Source: Rubrivivax sp. (GTDB taxonomy: Bacteria; Pseudomonadota; Gammaproteobacteria; Burkholderiales; Burkholderiaceae_C). Taken from it: a stretch of 40,938 bases of DNA. Position 1 is the stretch's first letter, and each line of letters begins with the position of its first letter. A program made the translations under genes and the position numbers. The notes under the pieces were generated by a model. It saw only the letters and a program-made list of their open reading frames with translations. It was not told the origin of the DNA and made no database searches. The stretch covers positions 1 through 40,938 of the forward strand of contig JALHOU010000003.1 of assembly GCA_022842825.1 (NCBI GenBank). The letters are read 5' to 3'. Positions 2,983-35,048 of this stretch are shown piece after piece.

Positions 2983-3035
2983 AACGCCCGTCCAGCCCGA
3001 ATGTGCCCGCCTCCGCGCGCGCCGACCCACACACG

Positions 3036-6255: not shown

Positions 6256-6651
6256 ATGAGCATGAAGCCGGCCAAGGACGCCGTCGACATCGGCATCGTC
6301 GTCGGCGACATCCAGGCCAGCCTGGCCTTCTACGAAGGCGTTCTCGGCTTGGCGAAAGTGCAGGAGATGCCGGTCTCGTTCGGCACCATGCACCGTCTGG
6401 CCTTCGGTCACAGCTTCATCAAGCTCATTGCGCCGAAGAAGGTGCCGCCTGCGGGCACGCTGGGCCTCGATCAGGCGCTCGGATTCCGCTACCTGACGTT
6501 CCCCGTCACGAACATCGACGAGGTCTGCGCCGCCTGCAAGAGGGCGGGCGTGAGGTTCGACGTCGAGAGAAACGAGTTCAAGCCGGGCGTGACCATCGCC
6601 ATGGTGCGGGACCCGGATGGCAACGTGGTCGAGTTCGTGCAGCGCGGCTGA
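6256..6651 (+). CDS. VOC family (glyoxalase/dioxygenase-fold) protein
   Basis: 131 aa; DIGIVVGDIQASLAFYEGVLGLAKVQEM...MVRDPDGNVVEFVQRG. Confidence 0.85.
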   Translation: MSMKPAKDAVDIGIVVGDIQASLAFYEGVLGLAKVQEMPVSFGTMHRLAFGHSFIKLIAPKKVPPAGTLGLDQALGFRYLTFPVTNIDEVCAACKRAGVRFDVERNEFKPGVTIAMVRDPDGNVVEFVQRG

Positions 6652-6727
6652 GGCACGCGGTCCACCGGCCCATCTGCGCGTGGATCGCGCGAGCCCGGCG
6701 CGTCCACAGCCGGCCCCCTTTCCCCAA

Positions 6728-6757
6728 TTGACATCGCGCGAAAGCGCGGCCTACGAT
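6728..6757 (+). promoter_or_regulatory. Candidate sigma70 promoter for iclR-2 and downstream catabolic operon
   Basis: TTGACA (6728-6733), 18-bp spacer, TACGAT (6752-6757); predicted start falls inside the adjacent palindrome. Confidence 0.5.
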
Positions 6758-6760
6758 GTG

Positions 6761-6787
6761 CCATAGGAGAACGCCGTTCTCCTATGG
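6761..6787. promoter_or_regulatory. 27-bp perfect inverted repeat overlapping the iclR-2 start codon; candidate autoregulatory operator
   Basis: CCATAGGAGAAC-GCC-GTTCTCCTATGG: 12-bp perfect arms, 3-bp spacer; the ATG at 6784-6786 lies in the right arm. Confidence 0.75.
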
Positions 6788-7578
6788 AGAACTCGCCGCT
6801 CGCCATGCTTGCCGCCCTCTCACACGGCCTGGACGTCATCGAGTACCTGGCCAAGGAACGCAAGCCCGCCTCGTTGGGGGCGGTGGCCGCCGCCATCGGC
6901 GTGGGCAAGTCGGGCACGCACCGCATCCTGGCCACCCTGTGCGCGCGGGGTTTCGTGGTGCGTTCCGAAGGTGGCATCTACGAGCTCGGTTTCCGGCTCT
7001 GGGAAAGCGCCTGGGCGGTGCCGGGTGTGCAGTTGGTGGCTCGCGCCGCACCGGTCATGCAGCGCGTGGCCGATGCCATCGGCGACGGCGCGACGCTGGG
7101 TGCGATCAACACCGGCTTCGATGTCGTCTACCTGCATGTGGTCGAGTCGCGGCAGACCGTTCGCGTCTACGTGGAAACCGGGGCCCGCCTGCCGGCGCAC
7201 ATCACGGCCACCGGCCTCGCCTGCCTGGCCTACTTGCCGCCCGAACGCCTGGAGCAGATCCTGCCGGCCCGGCTCGAGGCGTACACACCGAACACGCTCG
7301 TCGACCGTGATGCGCTGCTGCGCGAACTGCAGCGCATCCGCGCGCGCGGCTGCGCGCGCACGATGGGCACCTTTCGCCCGGACGTGGGCGGGATCGCCGC
7401 GCCCGTGTTCGACGGCGAAGGCCGGGTGGTTGCGGCGCTGTGTGTCTCTTCGCCCACCTACCGCATCGATACCGCCTGGACACGCAAGGTGTCCAAGGCC
7501 GTGATGGCGGCGGCGCACGAGATGAGCGGCTTTCCGTTCGCCGGCCAGGCCGTGCATGCGCTGGCAGCGGCCGCATGA
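6784..7578 (+). CDS. IclR family transcriptional regulator (IclR-2)
   Basis: 264 aa; LSHGLDVIEYLAKERKPASLGAVAAAIGVGKSGTHRILATLCARGFV...RLPAHITATGLACLAYLPPERL. Confidence 0.9.
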   Translation: MENSPLAMLAALSHGLDVIEYLAKERKPASLGAVAAAIGVGKSGTHRILATLCARGFVVRSEGGIYELGFRLWESAWAVPGVQLVARAAPVMQRVADAIGDGATLGAINTGFDVVYLHVVESRQTVRVYVETGARLPAHITATGLACLAYLPPERLEQILPARLEAYTPNTLVDRDALLRELQRIRARGCARTMGTFRPDVGGIAAPVFDGEGRVVAALCVSSPTYRIDTAWTRKVSKAVMAAAHEMSGFPFAGQAVHALAAAA

Positions 7579-7632
7579 ACGGCATGGCCATCGCACTCGC
7601 CGCATGCGCCCACCACCTCGGCCGGAGCTGAA

Positions 7633-8889
7633 ATGACATCGACCGCATTCCCCGAACAGGGGCTGGCAGCGGAGCCGCTGTTCGCGCAGATGGAACAGGC
7701 GCGCAGCACGGACGTGGACTGGAAGCGCGGTCGCCTGGGCCTGTATGTGCACTATGCGGGCGAGGACGTGCTGGCCGTCGCCAGGGAAGCGTATCTGCGC
7801 TTCTTCTCCGAGAACGCGCTCGGCCCCAAGGCCTTCCCGAGCCTGAAGCGCTTCGAGGACGACATCGTGGCCTGGACGGCGAGCATCCTTCAAGCCGGTT
7901 CCGCCGCCAGCGGCGTGGTCACCTCGGGCGGCACCGAGAGCATCTTCCTGGCCATGAAGACGGCGCGCGACTGGGCCCGCGCCGAACGGCCCGCCATCAC
8001 CGGCGTGCCCGAGGTCGTCGCGCCCGTCAGCGCCCACCCCGCGTTCGACAAGTCGGCCCACTACCTGGGCCTGCGCGTGCGCCGCGTGCCCTTGCGCGCC
8101 GACTTCCGCGCCGATGCCGAAGCGATGGCACGCGCGGTCTCGCCGGCCACGATCATGGTCGTCGGCTCGGCACCCGCGTTTCCGCACGGTGTCATCGACC
8201 CGATTCCCGACCTCGCGCGGCTGGCGCGCGAGCGCGGCCTGTGGATGCATGTCGATGCCTGCGTCGGTGGTTTCCTGGCGCCGTTCGCGCGCCGCATCGG
8301 CTACCCGATCCCGCCCTTCGACTTCGCCGTCGAGGGCGTGTCTTCCATGTCGGCCGATCTGCACAAGTACGGCTTCACGGCCAAAGGCGCATCGACCCTG
8401 CTGCTGGCTGACGCCGGGATGCGCCGCCATCTGGTCTTCGAATTCGACGGCTGGCCGCGTGGCCGCTATGCCTCGCCCACTTTCGCCGGCACGCGCCCCG
8501 GCGGCGCGATCGCGGCGGCCTGGGCGGTGATGCGCCATCTGGGTGCCGAGGGCTACTCTCGCCTGGCCCGCGCCATCATGGGAGCACGCGACCGCTGGAT
8601 GGCCGGCATCGAGGCGATCGAGGGCTTGCAAGTCGTCGGCCGGCCCGACCTCTCGGTCTTCGGGTTCACCGGCCGCGACGTGGACATGTTCGCCGTCGCC
8701 GAACAGATGACCGCACGCGGCTGGTTCGTCTCGACCATGAGCGAGCCGCCCGGCATCCACCTCGGCATGCCGACCATGGCGCACGTGCCCCATGTCGACG
8801 AGTACCTGGCCGACCTGGCCGCGGCGGTGGCCGCGGTGCGCGCCGGCCGTCTGAGTGCCGCCTCGCGGGACGTGTCGTATGGCGGGTGA
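7633..8889 (+). CDS. PLP-dependent decarboxylase/lyase-like enzyme, group II (sphingosine-1-phosphate lyase-like), paralogue 1
   Basis: 418 aa; TSGGTESIFLAMKTARD, HVDACVGGFLAPF, SADLHKYGFTAKGAS (putative PLP lysine). Confidence 0.9.
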   Translation: MTSTAFPEQGLAAEPLFAQMEQARSTDVDWKRGRLGLYVHYAGEDVLAVAREAYLRFFSENALGPKAFPSLKRFEDDIVAWTASILQAGSAASGVVTSGGTESIFLAMKTARDWARAERPAITGVPEVVAPVSAHPAFDKSAHYLGLRVRRVPLRADFRADAEAMARAVSPATIMVVGSAPAFPHGVIDPIPDLARLARERGLWMHVDACVGGFLAPFARRIGYPIPPFDFAVEGVSSMSADLHKYGFTAKGASTLLLADAGMRRHLVFEFDGWPRGRYASPTFAGTRPGGAIAAAWAVMRHLGAEGYSRLARAIMGARDRWMAGIEAIEGLQVVGRPDLSVFGFTGRDVDMFAVAEQMTARGWFVSTMSEPPGIHLGMPTMAHVPHVDEYLADLAAAVAAVRAGRLSAASRDVSYGG

Positions 8890-10999
8890 CCTGCGGCCCG
8901 CGACCCCAGCGGGCAGGCGCGACCTCGTGCTGGGTGTGGACGTGGGCGGCACCTTCACCGACCTGCTGCTGCTCGACCCTTCGACCCGCCGCCTCACGGT
9001 GGCCAAGGTGCCGACCACGCCGCGCGACCAGTCCCTCGGGTTCATGGCCGGCATCCAGGCGCTGGGGCTCGATGCAGCGCGTGCGCGCACCATCGTGCAC
9101 GGCACCACCGCGGCCACCAACGCCGTGCTCGAACGCAAGGGCGCGCGCTGCGGGCTCATCACCACAGCGGGCTTCGGCGACATCCTGGAGCTGGCGCGCC
9201 GCACGCGCCCGCACCTGTTCGGCCTCACCGGCGAGTTCGAGTCGCTGATCGCGCGCGAGCTGCGCCTCGAGGTGCGCGAGCGCATCGACGCCGACGGCGC
9301 CGTGCTGGTGCCGCTGGACGAAGCCGATGTGCGCGCCGCGGTCGCCGAACTGCAGCGCCTGGGCGCCGAATCGATTGCCGTGCACTTCCTGCACTCGTAT
9401 GCCAACCCGGCCCACGAGCGCCGCTGCCTCGAGCTCGTGCGCTCGTTGTGGCCCAACGACCATGTCTCGGCCGGCTCGGAGCTGCTGCCGGAAATCCGCG
9501 AGTTCGAGCGCGGCACCGTGGTGGCACTCAACGCCTACGTGCAGCCGATCGTCGCCGGCTACATCCAGCGCCTGTCGCGCCGGCTGGCCGAGGCCGGCTT
9601 CCAGCGAGAACTGCTGATCATGCAGGGCAATGGCGGCATGATGGACGCGACGCTGACGCGCCGGCATGCCGTGCACACGGTGCTGTCGGGGCCGGCCTCG
9701 GGCGCCATCGCCGCGGCCCGCATCGGCCAGGCGGCGGGGCTGCCCAACCTCATCACCTGCGACATGGGCGGCACGAGCTTCGATGTCTCGGTCATCGTCG
9801 ACGGCGAACCGGCGATCACGCGCGAACGCAGCATCGACTATGCGATTCCGCTGCGCATCCCGATGATCGACATCCACACCATCGGTGCCGGCGGCGGCAG
9901 CCTGGCGCGCATCACCAGCGGCGGCATGCTGCAGGTCGGGCCCCAGAGCGCGGGCGCCGACCCGGGACCGATCTGCTTCGGGCGCGGCGGCACCGAAGCG
10001 ACGGTGACCGACGCCAACCTCGTGCTCGGGCGCATCAATCCGGCGCGCCTCACGGGGGTGGCCCGCGGCGCCGACGTGGCGCAGGTGCGCCGCCAGATCG
10101 GCGAGCGCATCGGCGCGCCGCTGGGCCTGGATGCCGACGCGGCCGCGGCCGGCATCCTGGCCGTGGCCAACGCCGCGATGGCCGATGCCATCCGCTTCAT
10201 GTCCATCGAGAAGGGGTTCGACCCGCGCGACTTCGCGCTCTTCGCCTTCGGCGGCGCCGGGCCGTTGCACGCCGCAGCGCTGGCGCGCGAACTCGGCGTG
10301 CCGCGCATCCTGGTGCCGCTGTACCCCGGCATCACCTCGGCGCTGGGTTGTGTGCTGGCCGACGTGCGCCACGACTATGGCCTCACGGTGAACCGGCCGC
10401 TCGAGGAGGTGCATGGCGCCTGGGTCGACGAGGTGTTGGCCGCGCAGGCCGCCGAGGGCCGCGCCTTGATCGAGCGCGAGGCGGTCGAGGTCTCCGGCTG
10501 CGACTGCCTGCACGAGGCCGACTTCCTGTACCAGGGCCAGACCCACGTGATGCGCGTTCCGGTGCACAGCCCCGGCTTCGACCCGGCGCGCACGCGCGCG
10601 CAGTTCGAGGCGCTCTACCGCGAGCGCTTCGATGTCGACCTGTCGGAGATGCGCCCCATCCTGGCCGCGTTGCGCACGGCAGTGATCGGCCGCCGCGAAC
10701 GGCTGGAGGGCCTTGGCCGGCCGGCCGCAGCACAGTCCGACAACGCGCCGGCGCAAGCCGTAGCGCAGCCTGCCCTGTCGCCTCCGCCGGCCGCCGCGCG
10801 GGCGGTGTGGTTCAACGGCCAATGGATCCAGACCCCCATCGTGGCGCGCCAGGCGCTGCAGCCGGGTGCCGAACTGCGCGGGCCGGCCATCGTCGAGCAG
10901 CTCGACACCACCACCATCATCGAGCCGGGCGATGTCGCTCGCGTCGACGCCATGGGCAACCTGATCATCAGCATTGCAGCCGGGGCCCAATCAGCATGA
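8879..10999 (+). CDS. Hydantoinase/oxoprolinase family protein, A subunit
   Basis: RDLVLGVDVGGTFTDLLLLDPSTRRLTVAKVPTTPRDQS...IVHGTTAATNAVLERKGARCGLITTAGFGDILELARRTRP; DMGGTSFDVSVI; FGGAGPLHAAALA. Start at ATG 8879 overlaps the previous stop. Confidence 0.93.
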   Translation: MAGDLRPATPAGRRDLVLGVDVGGTFTDLLLLDPSTRRLTVAKVPTTPRDQSLGFMAGIQALGLDAARARTIVHGTTAATNAVLERKGARCGLITTAGFGDILELARRTRPHLFGLTGEFESLIARELRLEVRERIDADGAVLVPLDEADVRAAVAELQRLGAESIAVHFLHSYANPAHERRCLELVRSLWPNDHVSAGSELLPEIREFERGTVVALNAYVQPIVAGYIQRLSRRLAEAGFQRELLIMQGNGGMMDATLTRRHAVHTVLSGPASGAIAAARIGQAAGLPNLITCDMGGTSFDVSVIVDGEPAITRERSIDYAIPLRIPMIDIHTIGAGGGSLARITSGGMLQVGPQSAGADPGPICFGRGGTEATVTDANLVLGRINPARLTGVARGADVAQVRRQIGERIGAPLGLDADAAAAGILAVANAAMADAIRFMSIEKGFDPRDFALFAFGGAGPLHAAALARELGVPRILVPLYPGITSALGCVLADVRHDYGLTVNRPLEEVHGAWVDEVLAAQAAEGRALIEREAVEVSGCDCLHEADFLYQGQTHVMRVPVHSPGFDPARTRAQFEALYRERFDVDLSEMRPILAALRTAVIGRRERLEGLGRPAAAQSDNAPAQAVAQPALSPPPAAARAVWFNGQWIQTPIVARQALQPGAELRGPAIVEQLDTTTIIEPGDVARVDAMGNLIISIAAGAQSA

Positions 11000-12750
11000 G
11001 CGCAGCACTGACGCACCCCGCGCCGGCCGCCCGCGTCGACCCGATCACGCTGGCGGTGATCCACAACAGCCTGAAAATGGTCACCGGCGAGATGGACCTG
11101 GTGCAGGAGAAGACCTCGTTCTCGCCCATCATCAGCGAGGCGATGGACCGCGCCAACGGCATCTACGCCGCGCACAACGGCGAGCTCATCGTGCAGGGCG
11201 CGCGCGGCCTGCCGCTGTTCATCGGTGTGATGCAGGCCACCGTGGGCGCCGTGATCGCGCGTGCCGGCACGCTGCGCCAGGGCGACGTGGTGATCGTCAA
11301 CGATCCCTACCTGGGCGGCACGCACCTGATGGACGTGCGGCTGGTGGCGCCGTTTTTCCACGAGGGCCGGCTGTGGGCCTGGCTGGCCAACTCCGCGCAC
11401 TGGGCGGACATCGGCGGCTCGGTGGCCGGCGGGTTCTCCAGCGATACCACCGAGGTGCACCAGGAGGGTCTGCGCCTGCCGCCGATCCGCATCTGCCGTG
11501 AGGGCGAGATCGACCACGACCTGCTGGCGCTGATCCTGGCCAACTGCCGCGTGCCCGACGAGCGCATCGGCGACCTCAAGGCGCAGCTGGGGGCGCTGAA
11601 GGTCGGCGAACGCCGCCTGCGGGCCCTGATCGAGCGCTACGGTGCGCCCACGGTCGAAGCGGTGATCGCCGAGGTCCGCCAGCGCGCCGAAGCCGAGATG
11701 CGCGCCCACATCGAAGCCATCCCCGACGGCGTCTATGCGTTCGAGGCGCCGATGGACAGCGACGGCATCAGTGACGAGCCCTTGTGGGTGCGCGTCGACA
11801 TGGGTGTGCGCGGCAGCGAACTGCATTTCGACTTCTCGCGCAGCAGCCCGGCCTGCCGGGGGCCGCTGAACACGCCGTTCGCCACCACCGTCTCGGCGAC
11901 GATGATCGGCCTGCGCCATGTGTTCCCCGATGTGCCGATGAATGCCGGCTGCTTCGCGCCGGTGCACATCCCGCCGCCGCGCGGCACCTTCCTGCACGCG
12001 GAGTATCCCCGGCCGGTGGCCGGCGCGGCCGCCGAGTGCTCGCAGCGCGTGGTCGAGGCCGTGCTCGGTGCGCTGGGGAAGGCGGTGCCGCAGCGCGCCT
12101 ACGCCGGCCCCTTCGGCACCGCGGGCAACTTCAGCCTGGGCGGCTACGACCCGCAGCGCGGCAGGCACTACGTGATGTACTACTTCAGCGGCGGCGGCTA
12201 CGGCGGCCACTGGGGCGGTGACGGGCACACGAATGCCTGCGCCACCATCGCCTTCACCCAGACGCAGCCGTTCGAGATCCTCGAGTCGCACTACCCGGTG
12301 TTGTTCGACCACGCGCGCATCCGCCCAGGCTCGGCCGGCGCGGGGCGCTTTCGCGGCGGCTTCGGCATCGACTACAGGGTGACGCTGCGGCGTGGCGAGG
12401 CGACGGCGGCGTTCATGATGGACCACGGCCGCTTCCCGCCGTTTGCGTTGGGCGGCGGAAAGCACGGTGCGATGACCGAGATCGAGGTCAGCCGACACGG
12501 CGAGCTCAGCCGGCCGGCCCACGTGTCCAAGGGCTCGGGCTTCGAGCTCGAGCCGGGCGACTGGGTGAAGGTGAGCACACCCGGCGGCGGCGGCTGGGGC
12601 AACCCGCGTGAACGCGATCGCGACCGGGTCGCGCGCGACGTGTCGCGTGGCTACATCACCGAAGAGCAGGCGCGGGCGGACTATGGATTCGAGCCGCGTG
12701 GCGATGGATCGGCGGGCGACCTTCCAGTGTGTTCAACAGTGAGGAGATGA
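10996..12750 (+). CDS. Hydantoinase/oxoprolinase family protein, B subunit
   Basis: ATGA overlap with the A subunit; DPITLAVIHNSLKMVTGEMDLVQEKTSFSPIISEAMDRANGIYAAHNGELIVQGARGLPLFIGVM...GGGGWGNPRERD. Confidence 0.93.
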   Translation: MSAALTHPAPAARVDPITLAVIHNSLKMVTGEMDLVQEKTSFSPIISEAMDRANGIYAAHNGELIVQGARGLPLFIGVMQATVGAVIARAGTLRQGDVVIVNDPYLGGTHLMDVRLVAPFFHEGRLWAWLANSAHWADIGGSVAGGFSSDTTEVHQEGLRLPPIRICREGEIDHDLLALILANCRVPDERIGDLKAQLGALKVGERRLRALIERYGAPTVEAVIAEVRQRAEAEMRAHIEAIPDGVYAFEAPMDSDGISDEPLWVRVDMGVRGSELHFDFSRSSPACRGPLNTPFATTVSATMIGLRHVFPDVPMNAGCFAPVHIPPPRGTFLHAEYPRPVAGAAAECSQRVVEAVLGALGKAVPQRAYAGPFGTAGNFSLGGYDPQRGRHYVMYYFSGGGYGGHWGGDGHTNACATIAFTQTQPFEILESHYPVLFDHARIRPGSAGAGRFRGGFGIDYRVTLRRGEATAAFMMDHGRFPPFALGGGKHGAMTEIEVSRHGELSRPAHVSKGSGFELEPGDWVKVSTPGGGGWGNPRERDRDRVARDVSRGYITEEQARADYGFEPRGDGSAGDLPVCSTVRR

Positions 12751-12752
12751 CG

Positions 12753-13745
12753 ATGCAAGGCCTTCAAGCGAAATGGTGTGCCGTGGCGGCGGCCTGTCTG
12801 GTGTTCGGCCATTCGGCCCAGGCGCAGACCGGCAAGGTCACCATCAAGCTCAACCTGGGCACGCCCGCAGGGCACCCCTACAACGTGGGCGCGGATGCGT
12901 TCAAGCGCATCGTCGAGGCCGACTCGGGCGGCGCCATCGTGGTCCAGATCTTCCCCTCGGCCCAGCTCGGCAGCGAGGTCGAGAGCGCGAAGAACGTGCA
13001 GCTCGGGACGCTGGAGGCGACGATCGCCTCGACCAGCAACATGAGCTCCTTCGTCGAGCGGTACAACGTCTTCTCGGTGCCCTATGTCTTCAAGTCGATT
13101 TCGTGCTCGTTCAAGGTCGTCGATGGCGCGGTGGGGTCCGAGCTGGCCGACACGCTCTTGAAGGGCTCGCGCGTGCGCGTGCTGGGTTATCCGACCTTCG
13201 GCGCCCGGCACCTCTTCAACACCAAGCGGCGCGTGGTCAAGGTCGATGACATCAAGGGCCTGAAGATCCGCGCCCCCGACGCGCTGCTCGAAGCCACCTG
13301 GCGCGCGCTCGGCGGCAATCCAGTGCCGCTGCCGTTCCCCGAGGTGTTCAACGCATTGCAGCAAGGCGTGATCGACGGCGATGCGAACCCGCTCACCAGC
13401 ATCCAGACCTTCCGCTGGTACGAGTCGGTCAAGTACGTCTCGCTCACGAGTACCGCGGTCGGCGTCGGCGTCTTCATCCTCAACGAGCCGTTCTTCCAGA
13501 AGCTGCCCAAGGCCCAGCAGGACATCGTGCTGCGTGCCGCGGCCGAGGCGGTGAGGGCGAACCGTGAGAGCGAGGCGGCGCTGAATGCCAAGGCTGAGGC
13601 CTTCCTGCGCACCCAGGGCGTCACCTTCGACACGCCGAACCAGGACGAATTCCGCGCCCGCCTGGCCCCAGTGTTCGATACCGCGAAGACGCGCTTCGGC
13701 CAGGAGCTGCTGGACCGCATCGGCGCGGCCCAGACCGGCTGCTGA
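12753..13745 (+). CDS. TRAP transporter substrate-binding protein, DctP family
   Basis: Signal peptide then KVTIKLNLGTPAGHPYNVGADAFKRIVEADSGGAIVVQIFPSAQLGSEVESAKNVQLGTLEATI; GAGGAG ribosome site 6 nt before ATG 12753 (alternative ATG 12747). Confidence 0.92.
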   Translation: MQGLQAKWCAVAAACLVFGHSAQAQTGKVTIKLNLGTPAGHPYNVGADAFKRIVEADSGGAIVVQIFPSAQLGSEVESAKNVQLGTLEATIASTSNMSSFVERYNVFSVPYVFKSISCSFKVVDGAVGSELADTLLKGSRVRVLGYPTFGARHLFNTKRRVVKVDDIKGLKIRAPDALLEATWRALGGNPVPLPFPEVFNALQQGVIDGDANPLTSIQTFRWYESVKYVSLTSTAVGVGVFILNEPFFQKLPKAQQDIVLRAAAEAVRANRESEAALNAKAEAFLRTQGVTFDTPNQDEFRARLAPVFDTAKTRFGQELLDRIGAAQTGC

Positions 13746-13754
13746 GCGCGCGCC

Positions 13755-14258
13755 ATGCCGGCCGAGCCAACGGCGGACACGAAGCGGGCCGCGGGCCCGC
13801 TGCAACTGCTCGATCGTGCCGAGGAGTTCGTGGCTGTGGGCCTGCTCGCCGTGCTCGGGCTGCTGCTGGGTGCGCAGGTGCTGCTGCGCTTCGCCTTCGG
13901 CCTGGGCTATGGCTGGATGGAAGAGATCATCCGCATGCTCTTCATCTGGGTCATCTTCCTCGGCGCGGTGGTCGCCATGCGGACCAACCTGCATATCCGG
14001 GTCGAGGCCGGATTGATGCTCTTTCCGGCTCGGTGGCGCCCTGCGCTGGCGTGGCTGGGTGACCTGATCCTGTTCGCGTTCTGCATCGCCATGGCGTGGT
14101 ACGGGGCGCAGCTGGTGGCCTCCACGCTGGAGGTGGAGTTCCGCCTCACCTCCACCGGGCTGTCGATGTTCTGGCCCTACCTGATCATTCCGCTCAGCTT
14201 CGGACTGCAGGCCTTGCGCCTGGCCCTGTGGCGCTTCGGCGTGCGGGGCGCGCCATGA
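13755..14258 (+). CDS. TRAP transporter small permease, DctQ family
   Basis: 167 aa, four hydrophobic segments; EEFVAVGLLAVLGLLLGAQVLLRFAFGLGYGWMEEIIRMLFIWVIFLGAVVAMRTNLHIRV. Confidence 0.9.
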   Translation: MPAEPTADTKRAAGPLQLLDRAEEFVAVGLLAVLGLLLGAQVLLRFAFGLGYGWMEEIIRMLFIWVIFLGAVVAMRTNLHIRVEAGLMLFPARWRPALAWLGDLILFAFCIAMAWYGAQLVASTLEVEFRLTSTGLSMFWPYLIIPLSFGLQALRLALWRFGVRGAP

Positions 14259-15556
14259 TGGCCTGGCTGGCCAGTATCGATGTCTCGGCACTGCTGTTCG
14301 GTGCCCTGCTCGTGCTGCTGGTGCTGGGCGTGCCGATCGCCCACGCGCTGGGCGCGGCGACGCTGCTTCTGGTGCTGGCGCAGGGCATTCCGCCGGTGTT
14401 CCTGCCGCAGACCACCTTCAACACGTCCGACTCGTTCCCGCTGGTGGCGGTGCCGTTCTTCGTGCTGGCCGGCTACCTGATGGAGTACGGCGGGCTGTCG
14501 CAGCGGTTGGTGAACTTGGCCTCGGCGCTCATCGGGCACGTGCAGGGCGGCTTCGCCTGCGTCACGATCCTCGCGTGCATGTTCTTCGCCGCCATGTCGG
14601 GGTCGGGCCCGGCCACCGTGGCGGCGATCGGCACGCTGATGATCCCGGCCATGATCCGCGTCGGCTATGACCGGCCTTTCGCTGCCGCCGTGGCATCCAC
14701 CGGCGGCACGCTGGGCATCATGATTCCGCCCAGCAACCCGATGATCATCTACGGCGTGGTCGGCAACGTCTCGGTGACGCAGCTGTTCATCGCCGGCATC
14801 GTGCCGGGCCTGCTGACCGGCTTCATGCTGATCGTCGGTTCGTGGTGGCTGTGCCGGCGCTACGGATTCGTCGGCTCGGGCGAGCGCCCCAGCACACAAC
14901 GGATGTGGCGCGCCGTGCTCGACGCGCGTTGGGCGCTGCTGGCGCCGGTGGTCGTGCTGGGCGGCATCTACGGCGGGGTCTTCACGCCGACCGAAGCCTC
15001 GGTGGTGGCCGCCTTCTACGGGCTCGCCGTGGGCCTGTTCGTCTACCGCGAGCTGAACCTGCGCCTGGTCTACCGGGCGCTGGCCAATGCGGTGCTGGTG
15101 GGCGGCACGGTCACGATCATCGTCGGCCTGGCCTCCGGGTTCGGGCGCCTGCTCACCCAGTATCAGATTCCGCAGCAGCTCACGCAGTCGGTGCTGTCGC
15201 TGTCGACCAACTGGTTCGTGGTACTGACCATCATCTGCATCGGGCTCATCATCATCGGCACCTTCATGGAGACGCTGGCCACGATCGTGCTGCTGACGCC
15301 GATCCTGCTGCCGGTGGTGGTGGCGCTCGGGGTCGACCCCATCCACTTCGGCATCCTGATCGTGATCACGTCGGAGATCGGCTTCCTCACGCCGCCGCTG
15401 GGGGTGAATCTCTTCGTCGCCATGGGCATCGCGAAAGTCACGTTGGAGGAGATCACCAAGGCCGTGCTGCCCTTCCTGTGGATGCTGTGTGCGATGACGG
15501 TGATCCTGACCGCGCTGCCGGAAATCAGCCTGTGGTTGCCCCGGCTGCTGCGCTGA
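14255..15556 (+). CDS. TRAP transporter large permease, DctM family
   Basis: ATGA overlap with DctQ; highly hydrophobic; MSGSGPATVAAIGTLMIPAMIRVGYDRPFAAAVASTGGTLGIMIPPSNPMIIYGVV; C-terminal ITSEIGFLTPPLGVNLFVAMGI. Confidence 0.94.
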   Translation: MMAWLASIDVSALLFGALLVLLVLGVPIAHALGAATLLLVLAQGIPPVFLPQTTFNTSDSFPLVAVPFFVLAGYLMEYGGLSQRLVNLASALIGHVQGGFACVTILACMFFAAMSGSGPATVAAIGTLMIPAMIRVGYDRPFAAAVASTGGTLGIMIPPSNPMIIYGVVGNVSVTQLFIAGIVPGLLTGFMLIVGSWWLCRRYGFVGSGERPSTQRMWRAVLDARWALLAPVVVLGGIYGGVFTPTEASVVAAFYGLAVGLFVYRELNLRLVYRALANAVLVGGTVTIIVGLASGFGRLLTQYQIPQQLTQSVLSLSTNWFVVLTIICIGLIIIGTFMETLATIVLLTPILLPVVVALGVDPIHFGILIVITSEIGFLTPPLGVNLFVAMGIAKVTLEEITKAVLPFLWMLCAMTVILTALPEISLWLPRLLR

Positions 15557-15577
15557 TCCAATGACGACGCCTGCGCT

Positions 15578-15626
15578 TGGCACTGCGATGCCACGGATTG
15601 ACGACCCCTCAGGGCCCGCTTAGCCT
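15578..15626 (+). promoter_or_regulatory. Candidate promoter with upstream inverted repeat ahead of the Tau-type ABC operon
   Basis: TGGCA-N6-TGCCA (15578-15593), then TTGACG (15598-15603), 17-bp spacer, TAGCCT (15621-15626). -10 is weak. Confidence 0.3.
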
Positions 15627-15694
15627 CGCTGCACCTCCCCGCCATTCCACCTGCAACTTCGCCGCGATTCCCGCCGGCACCAGAAAGGCTGCTC

Positions 15695-16732
15695 ATGAAG
15701 CTCCACCTGTCGCGTCGCGACTTCGGCCTCGCGGCCTCGAACATGCTGCTGGGCTCGGTGGCCGGGGGAGGCCTGCTCGCGGCCGGGCCGGTGATGGCGC
15801 AGCAGAAGACGGTGAACCTGGGCACGTTCGGCAGCGTCGACGTGCAGAACTACATCCGCGCCAAGGGCGCGATGGCCAAGACCTTCGGTGCCGGCACCAA
15901 GGTGGAGTTCGTCACCGTGCGCGCGGGCTCGGAGGTGATCGCGGCCATCGCCGGCAACAGCCTGGACATGTGCAACCTGGGCTCGAGCCCCATGGTCGTG
16001 GGCTATGCCAACGGCGTGCAGGCCTCGCTCGTGTACGTGTACAAGAACATCATCGACAGCGAGGCGCTGGTGGTGCAGAACAGCGCCAACATCAAGACGC
16101 TGGCCGACATGCGCGGCAAACGCGTGGGCCTGCCTTTCAACACCTCGGTGCACTTCGCCGCGCTGGCCGCGTTCAAGACCGCGGGGCTCGGCCTCAACGA
16201 CGTCAAGCTCATCAACATGCGGGCCGACACCATTGCCTCGGCCTGGGCGCGGCGCGAGATCGACGCCAGCTACATCTGGGTGCCGGTGGTGCCCAAGCTC
16301 GTGGAGGACGCCGGCACCATCATCTTCAAGACCGGTGACCTCAACGCCACGGGGCTGGTGATGTTCGACGCCTTCCTCGTGCGCGACGAGTTCAAGAAGA
16401 AGCACCCGGACCTGGTGCTCGCGTTCCTGAAGGACTTCGAGCAACTGGCCGTGACCTTCAAGCAGAACCCGAAGGACGTGGTCGAGACGATGACCAAGTT
16501 CCTCGGCGTGGACGAGGCGGCGGTGATGCGCTCGCTGAACACTTTCTATCCGGTGTCGGCCAAGGAGCAGCTCACCGCCAAGTGGCTGGGCAAGCCGGGC
16601 GAGCGCAACTCGGCCGTGGTGCGCACGCTGCAGACACAGGCCGAATTCCTGAAGGAGACCGGCCAGATCAACGCACTGCCCAAGGACATGAACGGGTTGA
16701 TCGACACGAGCTTCGTCGCGCAGATGGTCTAG
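15695..16732 (+). CDS. ABC transporter substrate-binding protein (taurine/nitrate/sulfonate type), probable Tat signal
   Basis: 345 aa; N-terminal LSRRDFGLAASNMLLGSVAGGGLLAAGPVMA; FVTVRAGSEVIAAIAGNSLDMCNLGSSPMVVGYANGVQASLVYVYKNI. Confidence 0.88.
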   Translation: MKLHLSRRDFGLAASNMLLGSVAGGGLLAAGPVMAQQKTVNLGTFGSVDVQNYIRAKGAMAKTFGAGTKVEFVTVRAGSEVIAAIAGNSLDMCNLGSSPMVVGYANGVQASLVYVYKNIIDSEALVVQNSANIKTLADMRGKRVGLPFNTSVHFAALAAFKTAGLGLNDVKLINMRADTIASAWARREIDASYIWVPVVPKLVEDAGTIIFKTGDLNATGLVMFDAFLVRDEFKKKHPDLVLAFLKDFEQLAVTFKQNPKDVVETMTKFLGVDEAAVMRSLNTFYPVSAKEQLTAKWLGKPGERNSAVVRTLQTQAEFLKETGQINALPKDMNGLIDTSFVAQMV

Positions 16733-16745
16733 GCGGCCGAGCGAC

Positions 16746-17558
16746 GTGGTGGAGCCGGCGGCGACGCCCCTCGTCAAGGCGCGCTTCGACCAGGTCAGCA
16801 AGCGCTTCGGCAGCGGGCCCGACTCGGTGCTCGCGCTGGAGCCGATCTCGATGGACATCGTCGAGAACGGCTTCGTCTGCCTCGTCGGGCCCTCCGGCTG
16901 CGGCAAGAGCACGCTGCTGAACATCCTGGCCGGGTTCGAGACGGCCACCAGCGGCCGCGCGCTCATGGACGAGCAGCCCGTGAGCGGCCCCGACCCGCGC
17001 CGCGGCGTGGTGTTCCAGCAGGGCGCGTTGTTCACCTGGATGAGCGTGCTCGACAACGTGGCCTTCGGCCCGCTGGCCACGGGCAAGCCGGCCGCCGAGG
17101 CGGCGCGCATCGCCATGCACTTTCTCGAGATGGTCGGCCTGGCCTCCTTCGCGCGCCGTTATCCGTACGAGCTCTCGGGCGGCATGCAGCAGCGCGTGGG
17201 CATCGCGCGGGCGCTCGCCAACGACCCGCAGATCCTGCTCATGGACGAGCCCTTCGCGGCGCTCGATGCGCAGACGCGCGAGTTGCTGCAGGAGGAGATC
17301 AAGCGCATCTGGCAGGACACGCGAAAGACGGTGCTGTGGATCACCCACAGCATCGAGGAGGCGCTGTTCCTGGCCACCGACATCGTGGTCATGACGGCGC
17401 GGCCGGGGCGCATCAAGGCGCGGCTGCGGCCGCAGTTTGCGCTCAGCCGCGACCCGGCCGTGGTGGCCAGTGCCGAGTTCGTGCGCATGAAGGCCGAGAT
17501 CTTCGGCATGCTGCGCGAGGAGGCGCTGGCCGCGCAGGAGCAGGAGGCACCACGATGA
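16746..17558 (+). CDS. ABC transporter ATP-binding protein (taurine/nitrate/sulfonate type)
   Basis: GPSGCGKSTLLNILAG (Walker A), LSGGMQQRVGIARAL, ILLMDEPFAALDAQTRE; GTG start. Confidence 0.94.
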   Translation: MVEPAATPLVKARFDQVSKRFGSGPDSVLALEPISMDIVENGFVCLVGPSGCGKSTLLNILAGFETATSGRALMDEQPVSGPDPRRGVVFQQGALFTWMSVLDNVAFGPLATGKPAAEAARIAMHFLEMVGLASFARRYPYELSGGMQQRVGIARALANDPQILLMDEPFAALDAQTRELLQEEIKRIWQDTRKTVLWITHSIEEALFLATDIVVMTARPGRIKARLRPQFALSRDPAVVASAEFVRMKAEIFGMLREEALAAQEQEAPR

Positions 17559-17583
17559 CCGCGTTTGCGGCGAGGCGGCGGCG

Positions 17584-18387
17584 ATGAGCGTGCACGGCAC
17601 CACGAAGCCTGGCCGCTCGCGCTGGATCAACCTCGGCTCGTTCGTCTCTCTGCTGCTGCTGTGGACGCTCGTCACCACGCCGCTGGGCGACAAGCCGCTC
17701 GTGGCGCCGCTCTTCCTGCCCTCGCCGATGTCGGTGTGGAACACGTTCCTCAACCTGATCCAGAACGGCTACCAGGGCAAGAGCCTGTGGTACCACCTGG
17801 GCATCAGCCTGTTCCGCTTCGGCCTCGCGTTCACGCTGACGGTGCTGGTGGCGGTGCCGCTCGGCCTGTGGATGGGCATGAACGAGACGGTGAAGGCGGT
17901 GCTCGACCCGCCCATCGAGATCAGCCGCCCGATGCCCAAGCTCGCGCTGTTGCCGCTGCTCATCATCTGGTTCGGCATCGGCGAGGTGGCCAAGGTGGTG
18001 ATCATCGTGCTGGCGCTGTTCCCCATCCTCTCCATCAGCGCCATGCAGGCGGTGCGCGGCGTGGGCCGGCGCAAGGTGCAGGCGGCGATGGCGCTGGGCG
18101 CTTCGCGCGGCATGATCTTCCGCCGCGTCATCTTCCCGGCCAGCCTGCCGGGCATCTTCACGAGCATCCGCGTCAGCATCGGCCTGGGCGTGACGATGCT
18201 GGTCGGCGCCGAGATGATCGCCACCAGCGCGGGCATCGCCTTCATGGCCATGTCGGCCTCCGACTTCCTGCTGACCAACGTGGTGATCGTGGGCGCGCTG
18301 ATCATGGCCACGCTTGGGTACACGCTGGACCTGTGCGCACGCGCGCTCGAGAACCGCATCGTCCACTGGGGCGGAAAGGAAGGCTGA
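17584..18387 (+). CDS. ABC transporter permease (taurine/nitrate/sulfonate type)
   Basis: 267 aa; AAMALGASRGMIFRRVIFPASLPGIFTSIRVSIGLGVTMLVGAEMIATSAGIAFM (EAA-loop pattern). Confidence 0.93.
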   Translation: MSVHGTTKPGRSRWINLGSFVSLLLLWTLVTTPLGDKPLVAPLFLPSPMSVWNTFLNLIQNGYQGKSLWYHLGISLFRFGLAFTLTVLVAVPLGLWMGMNETVKAVLDPPIEISRPMPKLALLPLLIIWFGIGEVAKVVIIVLALFPILSISAMQAVRGVGRRKVQAAMALGASRGMIFRRVIFPASLPGIFTSIRVSIGLGVTMLVGAEMIATSAGIAFMAMSASDFLLTNVVIVGALIMATLGYTLDLCARALENRIVHWGGKEG

Positions 18388-18388
18388 G

Positions 18389-19624
18389 ATGACGACGTTG
18401 CCGCCATCGGGCATACCCTGGCCCGAACTGAAGGCGCAGTTGCAGGAGGCGGGCCGGAACGACGTCGACTGGCGCAACGGCCGCGTGCCGATGTTCATCC
18501 ACTACGCCGGCGAAGACGTGCTCGAGGTGGCCAAGCAGGCCTACCTGATGTACTTCTCCGAGAACGGCCTGGGGCTGCGCGCTTTCAAGAGCCTGGCCAC
18601 CTTCGAGTCCGAAGTGGTGGCGATGGGCCTGGGGCTGCTGCACGGCGACGCCGGCACGCGCGGCGCCATGACCACGGGCGGCACCGAGAGCATCTTCCTG
18701 GCGGTGAAGGCGGCGCGCGACATCATGCTCAAGCGGCGGCCCGGCATCGGGCGGCCGCAGATGGTGCTGGCCGCCAGTGCCCACCCGGCCTTCGACAAGG
18801 CCGCGCACTTCATGGGCTTGCAGACGGTGCGCACGCCCCTGCAGGCTGACTTCCGCGCCGACCCGGCCGCCATGGCCGCGGCCATCACGCCCGACACGGT
18901 GATGCTGGTCGGCTCCGTGCCGGCTTTCCCGCACGGCGTCGTCGACCCCATCGGCGACATCGCCGCCATCGCCGCGCAGCGCGGGCTGTGGATGCACGTG
19001 GACGCGTGCGTGGGCGGCTACTTCGCGCCGTTTGCCCACAAGCTCGGCGTGCCGATTCCCCACTGGGACTTTGCGGTGCCCGGTGTCACGTCGATCTCCG
19101 CCGACCTGCACAAGTACGGTTACGCGGCCAAGGGCGCCTCGACGCTGTTCTTCCGCGACGCCGAGAGCTTCGCGGGGATGGGCTGGAGTTTCGACAACTG
19201 GCCGCGCGGCCAGTACTTCACGCACACGTTGGTAGGCACGCGCGCGGGCGGCGCCATCGCCGCGGCCTGGGCGGTGATGAAGTACCTGGGCGAAGATGGC
19301 TACCTGCGCATCACCGAGCGTGTGCTGGCCACGCGGCGGGCCATCCAGGACGGGGCCGCCGCGCTGGGCCTGCCCGCGCTGGGCGACCCGCAGCTGTGCA
19401 TCCTGGCCTACGGGTCACCCGAGCACGACATCGCCGCCATCGGCGCCGGGTTGAACGCGCGCGGCTGGGTGGCGGGCTTCACCAAGGAGCCGGCCGGCAT
19501 CCACCACATGCTGAACCTGACGCACGAGCCGGTGGTCGAGCGCTACCTGTCGGACCTGTCGGACGCCATGAACGACGTGCGAAAGGCAGGCCTCAAGCCG
19601 CAGGCCGTGCAGGCGCGGTACTGA
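18389..19624 (+). CDS. PLP-dependent decarboxylase/lyase-like enzyme, group II, paralogue 2
   Basis: Clear paralogue of 7633..8889: shared DVDW, HYAGEDVL, GGTESIFLA, SAHPAFDK, FPHGV, LWMHVDACVGG, SADLHKYG, GGAIAAAWAVM. Confidence 0.9.
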   Translation: MTTLPPSGIPWPELKAQLQEAGRNDVDWRNGRVPMFIHYAGEDVLEVAKQAYLMYFSENGLGLRAFKSLATFESEVVAMGLGLLHGDAGTRGAMTTGGTESIFLAVKAARDIMLKRRPGIGRPQMVLAASAHPAFDKAAHFMGLQTVRTPLQADFRADPAAMAAAITPDTVMLVGSVPAFPHGVVDPIGDIAAIAAQRGLWMHVDACVGGYFAPFAHKLGVPIPHWDFAVPGVTSISADLHKYGYAAKGASTLFFRDAESFAGMGWSFDNWPRGQYFTHTLVGTRAGGAIAAAWAVMKYLGEDGYLRITERVLATRRAIQDGAAALGLPALGDPQLCILAYGSPEHDIAAIGAGLNARGWVAGFTKEPAGIHHMLNLTHEPVVERYLSDLSDAMNDVRKAGLKPQAVQARY

Positions 19625-24648: not shown

Positions 24649-27171
24649 ATGCCGCAACGCCGCGATCTGATCATCCTGCTGCTCGGGCTGGTGCTGCTGC
24701 CCTTCGCGCTGCGCGCGCTGGGCCTGGGCACGACCTCGGCCACCGAGGTGGTGGTGTTTGCGCTCGCCTGCATGGCGCTCAATGTCCTGGTCGGCTACAC
24801 GGGCCTGGTCTCGTTCGGCCATGGGGCCTGGTTCGGGCTTGGAGCCTACGCCGCGGGCTTGGCGCAGAAGGAACTGTTCCCCGGCAGCTTCGTCCTGCCG
24901 CTGCTGGTCGCCTTGGCCGCGGTGCTGGTGCTGGCGTTTGCGTTCGGCTTCCTCGTGCTGCGCCGGCGCGGCGTGTACTTCTCGCTGCTCACGCTGGCGC
25001 TGGCGGCGATGCTCTACGCGGTGGCCTTCCGCTGGACGGCAGTGACGGGCGGCGAGAACGGCCTGGGTGGCATCACGCGGCCGGTGCTGCTGGGTGTGTC
25101 CTTCGACAACGCCGACGCCTACTACGTGCTCGTGGCCAGCATCGCGCTGGTGGCGGTGGGGTTGCTGTGGCGCTTCCACCGCTCGCCGCTGGGCACGGTG
25201 CTCGTGGCCATCCGCGAAAACGAGCAGCGGGCGCGCTTCGTCGGCTACGCCACCAACCGCTACAAGCTCGCCGCCTTCACGCTCTCGGCCGGCCTCACGG
25301 GGCTGGCCGGCGTGCTGCTGCTCTTCAACAACCGAATGACGAGCGCCGAGCCGATCTCGGTGGCCTTCAGCGGCGAGCTGCTGGCCATGGTGATCATCGG
25401 CGGCATGCGCAGCTTCCTCGGGCCGGCGCTGGGGGCGTTGTTCTTCGTCATCTTCCGCGACTTCCTCTCACGCGTCACCGAGAACTGGCTGCTGTGGTTC
25501 GGGCTGCTGTTCGTGGCCTTCATCGTCTTCTCGCCCACGGGGCTGGTGGGGGTGGCGCAGCGCATCCGGCAGCGGTTGCGGCCGCCGCCGGCGGTGGACG
25601 CCGCGATGGCCTCGCGTGGGCAGGGCGAGGTCGTGCTGCCCGCATCGCTGAAGCCGCAGCAGCATGCCGAGGGGCCGGTGCTGCAGGTGCAGGGCCTGGG
25701 CAAGAGCTTCGGCGGCATCCGCGCCGTGACGGGGCTGGACCTCGCCGTGCGCGACCGCTCGCTGCACGCACTGATCGGCCCCAACGGTGCCGGCAAGACG
25801 ACCGCCTTCAACGCCATCTCGGGCCTCTTCGCGCCCGACGCCGGGCAGGTGCGGCTGCTCGGGCGCGAGGTGCAGGGGCTGAGCCCGGAAGACATCACGC
25901 AGGCGGGCGTGGGTCGTTCGTTCCAGATCACGAATCTCTTCGGCGCGCTCTCGGTGGCCGAGAACGTGCGCCTGGCGGTGCAGGCGCGCGACCGCCGCCG
26001 CATGTGGTTCTGGGTCGATGCGGCCTCGCTCTCGCAGGTGGGCGAAGACAGCGCCGATGTCGTGCGCACGATGGGCCTGGCCGGCATCGAGCAGGCGGAG
26101 GCGGCGTCGCTCTCCTATGGCGGGCAGCGCCTGCTCGACATGGCGCTGGCGGTGGCGACGCGGCCTCGCGTGCTGCTGCTCGACGAGCCGCTGGCCGGCC
26201 TGGCCGCCGCCGAGCGAGAGCGCGTGGGCCAGCTCATCAAGGGCATCTCGCGCGAGCTGCCCGTGCTGCTGGTGGAGCACGACATCGACCGCGTCTTCGC
26301 GCTCGCCGACCACGTGACGGTCATGAACGAAGGCCGGCGCCTGGTGGACGGCACGGTCGACGACGCGCGCAACTCGCCGCGCGTGCAGGAGGTGTACGTG
26401 GGCTCGGGCAGCCACGCGCTGGCGGCGCGTGCGCGCACCAGCGCCGCACGCGAGACGACGCTGCTGACGCTGCAGGGCGTGAACACCTTCTACGGCAAGA
26501 GTCACATCCTGCGCGACGTGGCCTTCGACGTGCGCGACCGCGAGATCGTGGCCCTGCTCGGCCGCAACGGCGCGGGCAAGAGCACGCTGCTGAAAACCAT
26601 CGTCGGCGTCACGCCGCCGGCCGCCGGGCGTGTCACGCTCTCGGGCCGCGAGCTGGCCGGCGAGCCCTCGGCGCGCATCGCGCGCCAGGGCGTGGCCTAC
26701 GTACCGCAGGGGCGCGGGCTCTTCGCCGGCATGACGGTGGCCGAGAACATGCAGCTCGGGCGCTTGAAGCGGCTGTCGGGCCGCGCCGACGCCGGCGTCG
26801 CCTGGGACGAGGAGCGCGTCTTCGCCTTCTTCCCGCGACTCAAGGAGCGCTGGCGCACCGAGGCCGACTACCTGAGCGGCGGCGAGCAGCAGATGGTGGC
26901 GGTGGCGCGTGCACTGGCCGGCGACACGCGACTGCTGCTGCTCGACGAGCCGTTCGAGGGCCTCGCGCCCACCGTGGTGGAAGAGCTCTTCGAGGCTTTC
27001 GACAAGCTGCGGCAGGAGATCAGCATCGTCATCGTCGACCACCACCTCGACCTCGCGCTGGCCCTGTCGGACCGCACGGTGGCGCTGGAGCGTGGCGAGG
27101 TGGTGCACGTCGGCCCCTCGCGCGTGTTGGCGGAGGACCTGGAACTGCGGCGGCGGGTGTTGTGGATGTGA
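24649..27171 (+). CDS. Fused ABC transporter: LivM-type permease + LivG-type ATPase + LivF-type ATPase
   Basis: 840-aa single ORF. Permease part MPQRRDLIILLLG...LNVLVGYTGLVSFGHGAWFGLGAYAAG; first ATPase GPNGAGKTT / LSYGGQR / LLLDEPLAGL; second ATPase GRNGAGKST / LSGGEQQ / LLLDEPFEGLAP. Confidence 0.93.
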   Translation: MPQRRDLIILLLGLVLLPFALRALGLGTTSATEVVVFALACMALNVLVGYTGLVSFGHGAWFGLGAYAAGLAQKELFPGSFVLPLLVALAAVLVLAFAFGFLVLRRRGVYFSLLTLALAAMLYAVAFRWTAVTGGENGLGGITRPVLLGVSFDNADAYYVLVASIALVAVGLLWRFHRSPLGTVLVAIRENEQRARFVGYATNRYKLAAFTLSAGLTGLAGVLLLFNNRMTSAEPISVAFSGELLAMVIIGGMRSFLGPALGALFFVIFRDFLSRVTENWLLWFGLLFVAFIVFSPTGLVGVAQRIRQRLRPPPAVDAAMASRGQGEVVLPASLKPQQHAEGPVLQVQGLGKSFGGIRAVTGLDLAVRDRSLHALIGPNGAGKTTAFNAISGLFAPDAGQVRLLGREVQGLSPEDITQAGVGRSFQITNLFGALSVAENVRLAVQARDRRRMWFWVDAASLSQVGEDSADVVRTMGLAGIEQAEAASLSYGGQRLLDMALAVATRPRVLLLDEPLAGLAAAERERVGQLIKGISRELPVLLVEHDIDRVFALADHVTVMNEGRRLVDGTVDDARNSPRVQEVYVGSGSHALAARARTSAARETTLLTLQGVNTFYGKSHILRDVAFDVRDREIVALLGRNGAGKSTLLKTIVGVTPPAAGRVTLSGRELAGEPSARIARQGVAYVPQGRGLFAGMTVAENMQLGRLKRLSGRADAGVAWDEERVFAFFPRLKERWRTEADYLSGGEQQMVAVARALAGDTRLLLLDEPFEGLAPTVVEELFEAFDKLRQEISIVIVDHHLDLALALSDRTVALERGEVVHVGPSRVLAEDLELRRRVLWM

Positions 27172-34340: not shown

Positions 34341-35048
34341 ATGCGCTGGAAACTGCTCCGCCGCCGGCTCTCGATCGCTTCGCCGAGGGTCATGATCCGC
34401 AGCCATCTGCCATGGCCGCTGCGTTGGGCGGCGGCGGCAGTGATGCTGGGCTTCTCGGCGGCGATCGCGCTGTGGGCGTTCGAGTTCGGCCGCGAGATCG
34501 CCGGTCTGGACAGCGGCGCCAAGCAGGAGCTGGCCCGCCTGCGCGCCGAGATTGGCCGCCTCTCTGGCGAGAACGAGAAGGCGCTGTCCCTCTCGAACAC
34601 CGCCGAGAGCCTGCTGCGCACCGAGCGCGCCGCGCAGGAGCGGCTGGCCCAGCAGGTGCGCCAGCTCGAGTCCGAGCGTCAGCGGCTGCGCCAGGACCTC
34701 GGGTTCTTCGAGCGCCTCATGCCCGCCGAGGGTGAGGGCCTGCAGGTGCGCGGCCTGATGGCCGAACCCGGCGACCACGGGCAGTTGCGCTTCCAGATGC
34801 TGGTGATGCAACTCGGCCGAAACGTGGCCGAGTTCAACGGCCGCTACGAGTTGTTGCTGAGCGGCCAGCACGAAGGCAAGCCCTGGACGCTAGCATTGCC
34901 CGGCGGTGCCAGGCCCCTTACGCTCAAGCAGTACGTGCGTGTCGAAGGCTTGGTCGAACATCCACCCGGAGCGGTGATCAAGTCAGTGCAGGCCCGGGTC
35001 ATTGACGCCAAGGGGGCGGTGCGGGCCACGCAGACGCTGAAGATGTGA
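34341..35048 (+). CDS. DUF6776-like membrane-anchored coiled-coil protein
   Basis: One TM segment (WPLRWAAAAVMLGFSAAIALWAF) followed by a coiled coil (ELARLRAEIGRLSGENEKALSL...ERLAQQVRQLESERQRLRQDLGFFERLMP) and a beta-rich C-terminus. Confidence 0.7.
   Translation: MRWKLLRRRLSIASPRVMIRSHLPWPLRWAAAAVMLGFSAAIALWAFEFGREIAGLDSGAKQELARLRAEIGRLSGENEKALSLSNTAESLLRTERAAQERLAQQVRQLESERQRLRQDLGFFERLMPAEGEGLQVRGLMAEPGDHGQLRFQMLVMQLGRNVAEFNGRYELLLSGQHEGKPWTLALPGGARPLTLKQYVRVEGLVEHPPGAVIKSVQARVIDAKGAVRATQTLKM

Follow-up and report, generated by a model that had tools for sequence, protein, structure and literature searches.

In this analysis we describe a 27-bp perfect palindrome at the start of iclR-2, a gene coding for an IclR-family regulator, within a window of 40,938 nucleotides of Rubrivivax sp. 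DNA (the whole stretch analyzed; features are listed in Table 1). The palindrome is very probably the core of a three-box operator, through which IclR-2 would repress its own gene along with the catabolic and transport genes lying behind it. The proposal is built on the sequence itself, on the geometry of its boxes, on a promoter-operator layout common to relatives and on the membership of the protein in the IclR family. Autorepression through an operator at its own promoter had been suggested in an earlier note on this DNA: it is supported by the IclR domains of the product, by box geometry and by the position of the boxes relative to the promoter in about 14 relatives.

The palindrome, CCATAGGAGAAC-GCC-GTTCTCCTATGG, was found exactly as first described, in coordinates as well as in letters; pairing reaches one base deeper than this division, so that a single central nucleotide is flanked by arms of 13 bp. 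No perfect inverted repeat in the window is longer, the runner-up having arms of 9 bp, and in 40 Markov shuffles of the window the longest arm ranged from 9 to 12, 13 being never reached. The promoter reported just upstream, TTGACA-N18-TACGAT, is indeed present, and is the sole sigma-70-like match within positions 6400-7700 (shuffle mean 0.1). Its -35/-10 spacer contains an inverted repeat of its own, CGCGC-GAAA-GCGCG (6735-6748).

The element does not end with the palindrome: a perfect third copy of the half-site GGAGAAC, at 6786-6792, extends it past 6787. The resulting series, AGAAC-GCC-GTTCT-CCTATGG-AGAAC, consists of three alternating boxes, here named B, C and D, with a 20-bp repeat; another perfect palindrome, made up of C and D, overlaps the first. 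Taken together, the element resembles a 17-bp operator present twice, at a distance of 20 bp, with the outermost box of the upstream copy, box A, degenerate; its loss may be explained by the overlap with the -10 element. The earlier note had two of the three boxes right and missed box D, so that the palindrome axis (6774) was mistaken for the axis of the site. Because of this third half-site, AGGAGA (6764-6769) is no longer the only ribosome-site-like stretch, as had been stated, GGAGA occurring again at 6786-6790.

Table 1. Features at the iclR-2 start and in the genes behind it (positions in the window).
Feature	Position	Strand	Basis or remark
Sigma-70-type promoter TTGACA-N18-TACGAT	6728..6757	+	Sole match in 6400-7700; TTGAC of relatives at near-equal distance from operator
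Operator box A, expected place	6756..6760	-	Degenerate, ATGTG vs consensus GTTCC; overlaps -10 element
27-bp perfect palindrome	6761..6787	.	Spacer CCATAGG + box B + GCC + box C + spacer CCTATGG
Operator box B, AGAAC	6768..6772	+	Sequence; group 2 (N3) spacing with box C; equivalent in relatives
Operator box C, GTTCT	6776..6780	-	Sequence; common to both palindromes
Group 1 type palindrome GTTCTCC-TAT-GGAGAAC	6776..6792	.	Centre 6784; top score in window, relatives-only matrix
Operator box D, AGAAC	6788..6792	+	Third half-site; equivalent box kept in relatives
iclR-2, IclR-family regulator	6784..7578	+	PF09339 and PF01614; start ATG 6784 or, likelier, ATG 6805
Same-strand genes, probably co-transcribed with iclR-2	7633..19624	+	Junctions short or overlapping where read
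DctQ-sized stretch	13746-14095		Within the 7633-19624 gene set

Suvorova and Gelfand 2021 (PMC8222616) distinguished two types of IclR motif, group 1 and group 2, which share their half-sites but arrange them differently, and predicted three-box sites combining both arrangements for 32 orthologous groups; PcaU, PobR and HmgR figure as earlier three-box cases in that paper. In the same study, site centres show two peaks relative to the gene start, one at -22 and one at -3 to +1, and a distance of 18-22 bp separates tandem sites. The pattern AGAAC-N3-GTTCT-N7-AGAAC exactly matches the group 1 plus the group 2 spacings, and the centre of the site, at -21 from ATG 6805 or on ATG 6784 itself, agrees with the published positions. 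Like the published three-box sites, that of iclR-2 features three alternating half-sites, with one group 1 and one group 2 pair, at a gene start; it differs from them in the letters of its boxes, GTTCTCC/GGAGAAC rather than GTTYCRY/RYGRAAC, and in being perfectly symmetric over 27 bp. In the PcaU, PobR and HmgR operators too, as cited there, a palindrome is accompanied by an outlying direct repeat of one of its half-sites, although their box letters are different and these regulators control an aromatic pathway, whereas the iclR-2 gene set contains hydantoinase and PLP decarboxylase genes. When 6776-6792 is compared with the group 1 consensus GTTYCRYW3RYGRAAC (subgroup GTT-11-AAC), 13 of the 17 positions fit and 4 miss; a search with this consensus allowing up to 3 mismatches thus does not find the site.

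Such departure from the IclR consensus might point to a site for another regulator, or to a repeat that has nothing to do with IclR-2 and is structural or arose by chance, and arms of up to 12 do turn up somewhere in shuffles of a GC-rich window of 41 kb. We regard this as highly improbable: three boxes with IclR spacings lie directly behind the -10 element of an iclR gene, in a layout found also in relatives, and no terminator-like site was found at the palindrome region.

The comparison with related genomes, proposed in the earlier note, led to distant proteins for the most part. Only one close homologue, at 59% identity (L023), was present among 401 family genomes, and no second copy was found in its genus. 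In the order sample, the search for close relatives returned none except the protein encoded in the window; GTDB contigs and viral contigs gave either 30-35% matches only, from distant phyla, or none, and plasmid records a single match, at 36%. More distant relatives, at 32-38% identity, are present in both genus and family. In L023 an NN join of the assembly falls exactly at the N terminus of the gene, where the operator would be, which makes the latter unreadable, and the missing N terminus was not recovered elsewhere in that genome. The join (L023/L032, G331:C62) is located inside an iclR reading frame and seems to attach the final part of one IclR-like gene to an internal part of a second, being probably a scaffolding error.

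In the upstream regions of 33 relatives, GTTC-N9-GAAC with at most 1 mismatch was detected in 18 (shuffles: mean 1.6, maximum 3), while none of the other GTTC-GAAC spacings, from N3 to N15, exceeded 3 regions; only the half-site letters were supplied to the scan and spacing was left free, but these letters had been chosen after two of the regions were seen, so that the scan is not a blind test. GAAC-N3-GTTC occurs in 11 of the 33 regions. The full layout, a promoter followed by boxes A-N7-B-N3-C-N7-D, can be aligned in about 14 relatives at 32-38% identity, in which the box geometry recurs; in most of them it lies behind a TTGAC promoter, with 49-52 bp from TTGAC to the start of box C, the corresponding figure for iclR-2 being 48. 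The regions of L026, L027, L034, L038 and L040-L043 share with iclR-2 a TTGAC promoter followed by boxes at a 20-bp period. They contain, however, all four boxes, while box A of iclR-2 is degenerate where it overlaps the -10 element, and their inner spacers are mostly AT-rich, in contrast to the CCATAGG/CCTATGG spacers of iclR-2. With a matrix derived from the relatives only, the iclR-2 site ranks first in the window, with 10.4 bits in the minus and 8.2 in the plus reading. Most of the relatives' own sites score about 20-29 bits by the same matrix, and a site at 25920, apparently in a coding region, reaches 8.6, from which the letter match of the iclR-2 site must be considered modest: it is geometry, not letters, that carries the argument for an operator. 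In the same-genus relatives L024 and L025, TTGACA-N18-TAGTAT is followed by a palindrome, ATTCG-GTTTTGC-CGAAC, immediately inside the predicted start of the coding region.

Assignment of the iclR-2 product to the family is clear, both domains scoring above the Pfam cut-offs (PF09339, HTH_IclR, 45.6 bits with a cut-off of 22; PF01614, IclR_C, 129.9 with a cut-off of 24). ATG 6784, placed by the earlier note inside the right arm of the palindrome, is the first possible in-frame start of the gene, but is weakened as the start actually used: a start codon is found at the position equivalent to ATG 6805 in 25 of 30 relatives, and 17 of these 25 have no in-frame start further up. This favours ATG 6805, previously put forward as the alternative, and translation of iclR-2 is predicted to start there with fair likelihood; the operator would then lie in the leader, its centre at -21.

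The location of the start codon also bears on a second layer of control, in which, besides the DNA operator, a hairpin in the mRNA would hide both the ribosome site and the start codon. A transcript beginning at 6761 does fold with a 12-bp stem (z = -2.85), and AGGAGA and, if used, ATG 6784 fall within it. Yet any transcribed DNA palindrome folds in this way, the likelier start is ATG 6805, and the predicted fold depends on where transcription begins: for transcripts from 6764 and 6766, nearer to the predicted start, the excess stability is mostly lost (z = -1.26 and -0.88, respectively), and from 6766 a different hairpin is favoured. No convincing Rfam match was found at the palindrome region. 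In 14 relatives the boxes are kept but the stem is not, the minimum free energy of the corresponding 27-mer ranging from 0 to -6.0 (mean -2.0 kcal/mol) against -17.8 for iclR-2; as the relatives compared are distant, a lineage-specific hairpin may still exist. The second layer is thus not supported and appears very unlikely, a by-product of DNA symmetry being the simpler reading of the hairpin.

As a rule, IclR proteins control their own genes and neighbouring operons. In the repression model preferred here, IclR-2 dimers would bind boxes C-D, with group 1 spacing, and/or boxes B-C, with group 2 spacing, roughly from +4 to +28; a protein bound just downstream of the -10 element would block RNA polymerase, repression would extend over iclR-2 and the same-strand genes up to 19624, and it would end when an effector frees IclR-2 from the operator. 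The family includes activators and dual regulators as well, and the earlier three-box sites belong, according to PMC8222616, to PcaU, PobR and HmgR; IclR-2 might then act at this site as an activator or dual regulator instead of a simple repressor. We hold this to be quite improbable, since boxes located downstream of the -10 element, over the expected transcription start, suit the blocking of polymerase rather than its recruitment.

The genes presumably repressed together with iclR-2, with which they would be co-transcribed, encode a PLP decarboxylase-like protein, hydantoinase/oxoprolinase A and B, TRAP DctP and DctM, an ABC transporter (binding protein, ATPase and permease) and a second PLP decarboxylase-like protein. 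The two PLP decarboxylase-like genes (7633-8889 and 18389-19624) bracket the hydantoinase, TRAP and ABC transporter set, an arrangement suggesting that they serve a single pathway, whose substrate would be amino-acid-like or a cyclic amide; the first of them is MfnA-like, below the NCBIfam cut-off. For an uncharacterized IclR regulator located beside hydantoinase and PLP decarboxylase genes, the analysis thereby yields both a probable operon and a probable motif for binding, GTTCTCC-N3-GGAGAAC. Apart from its symmetry, the system would be one of ordinary autoregulation, with a known operator layout and sequence-divergent boxes.

The symmetry itself, perfect in both overlapping palindromes, makes the site well suited to a clean test of the published idea that IclR proteins have two dimerization modes. 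It is conceivable, albeit rather unlikely, that selection has favoured the 27-bp symmetry because IclR-2 dimers bind in the group 2 (B-C) mode too, the overlapping palindromes acting as a switch between two dimerization modes at one promoter and box A having been sacrificed to the -10 element.

The exact 14-letter motif occurs, in 301 family genomes, at the iclR-2 site only, and matches with at most 3 mismatches in the own genome, 93 against 76 for the control, are close to control level; one site with 1 mismatch lies at C77 of this genome. No second IclR-2 operator was found within the window: a candidate at 8688, with its 3 mismatches, is no better than expected by chance, and that at 25920 was discarded, being apparently in a coding region. 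Elsewhere in the window, an inverted repeat with 9-bp arms, AACTCGGCC-GAAACGT-GGCCGAGTT, lies at 34810-34834 and has no trailing T run. Besides iclR-2, the window contains the IclR gene iclR-1, which lies on the minus strand and diverges from a cupin gene at 3003; it has a three-box site of its own at 2959-2983, GAAC-AAAT-GTTCGCATAGCGAAC. Within it, TGTTCGCATAGCGAACA (2967-2983) is an exact fit to the published subgroup TGTYCRYW3RYGRACA, for which the chance expectation is 0.07 even with up to 2 mismatches.
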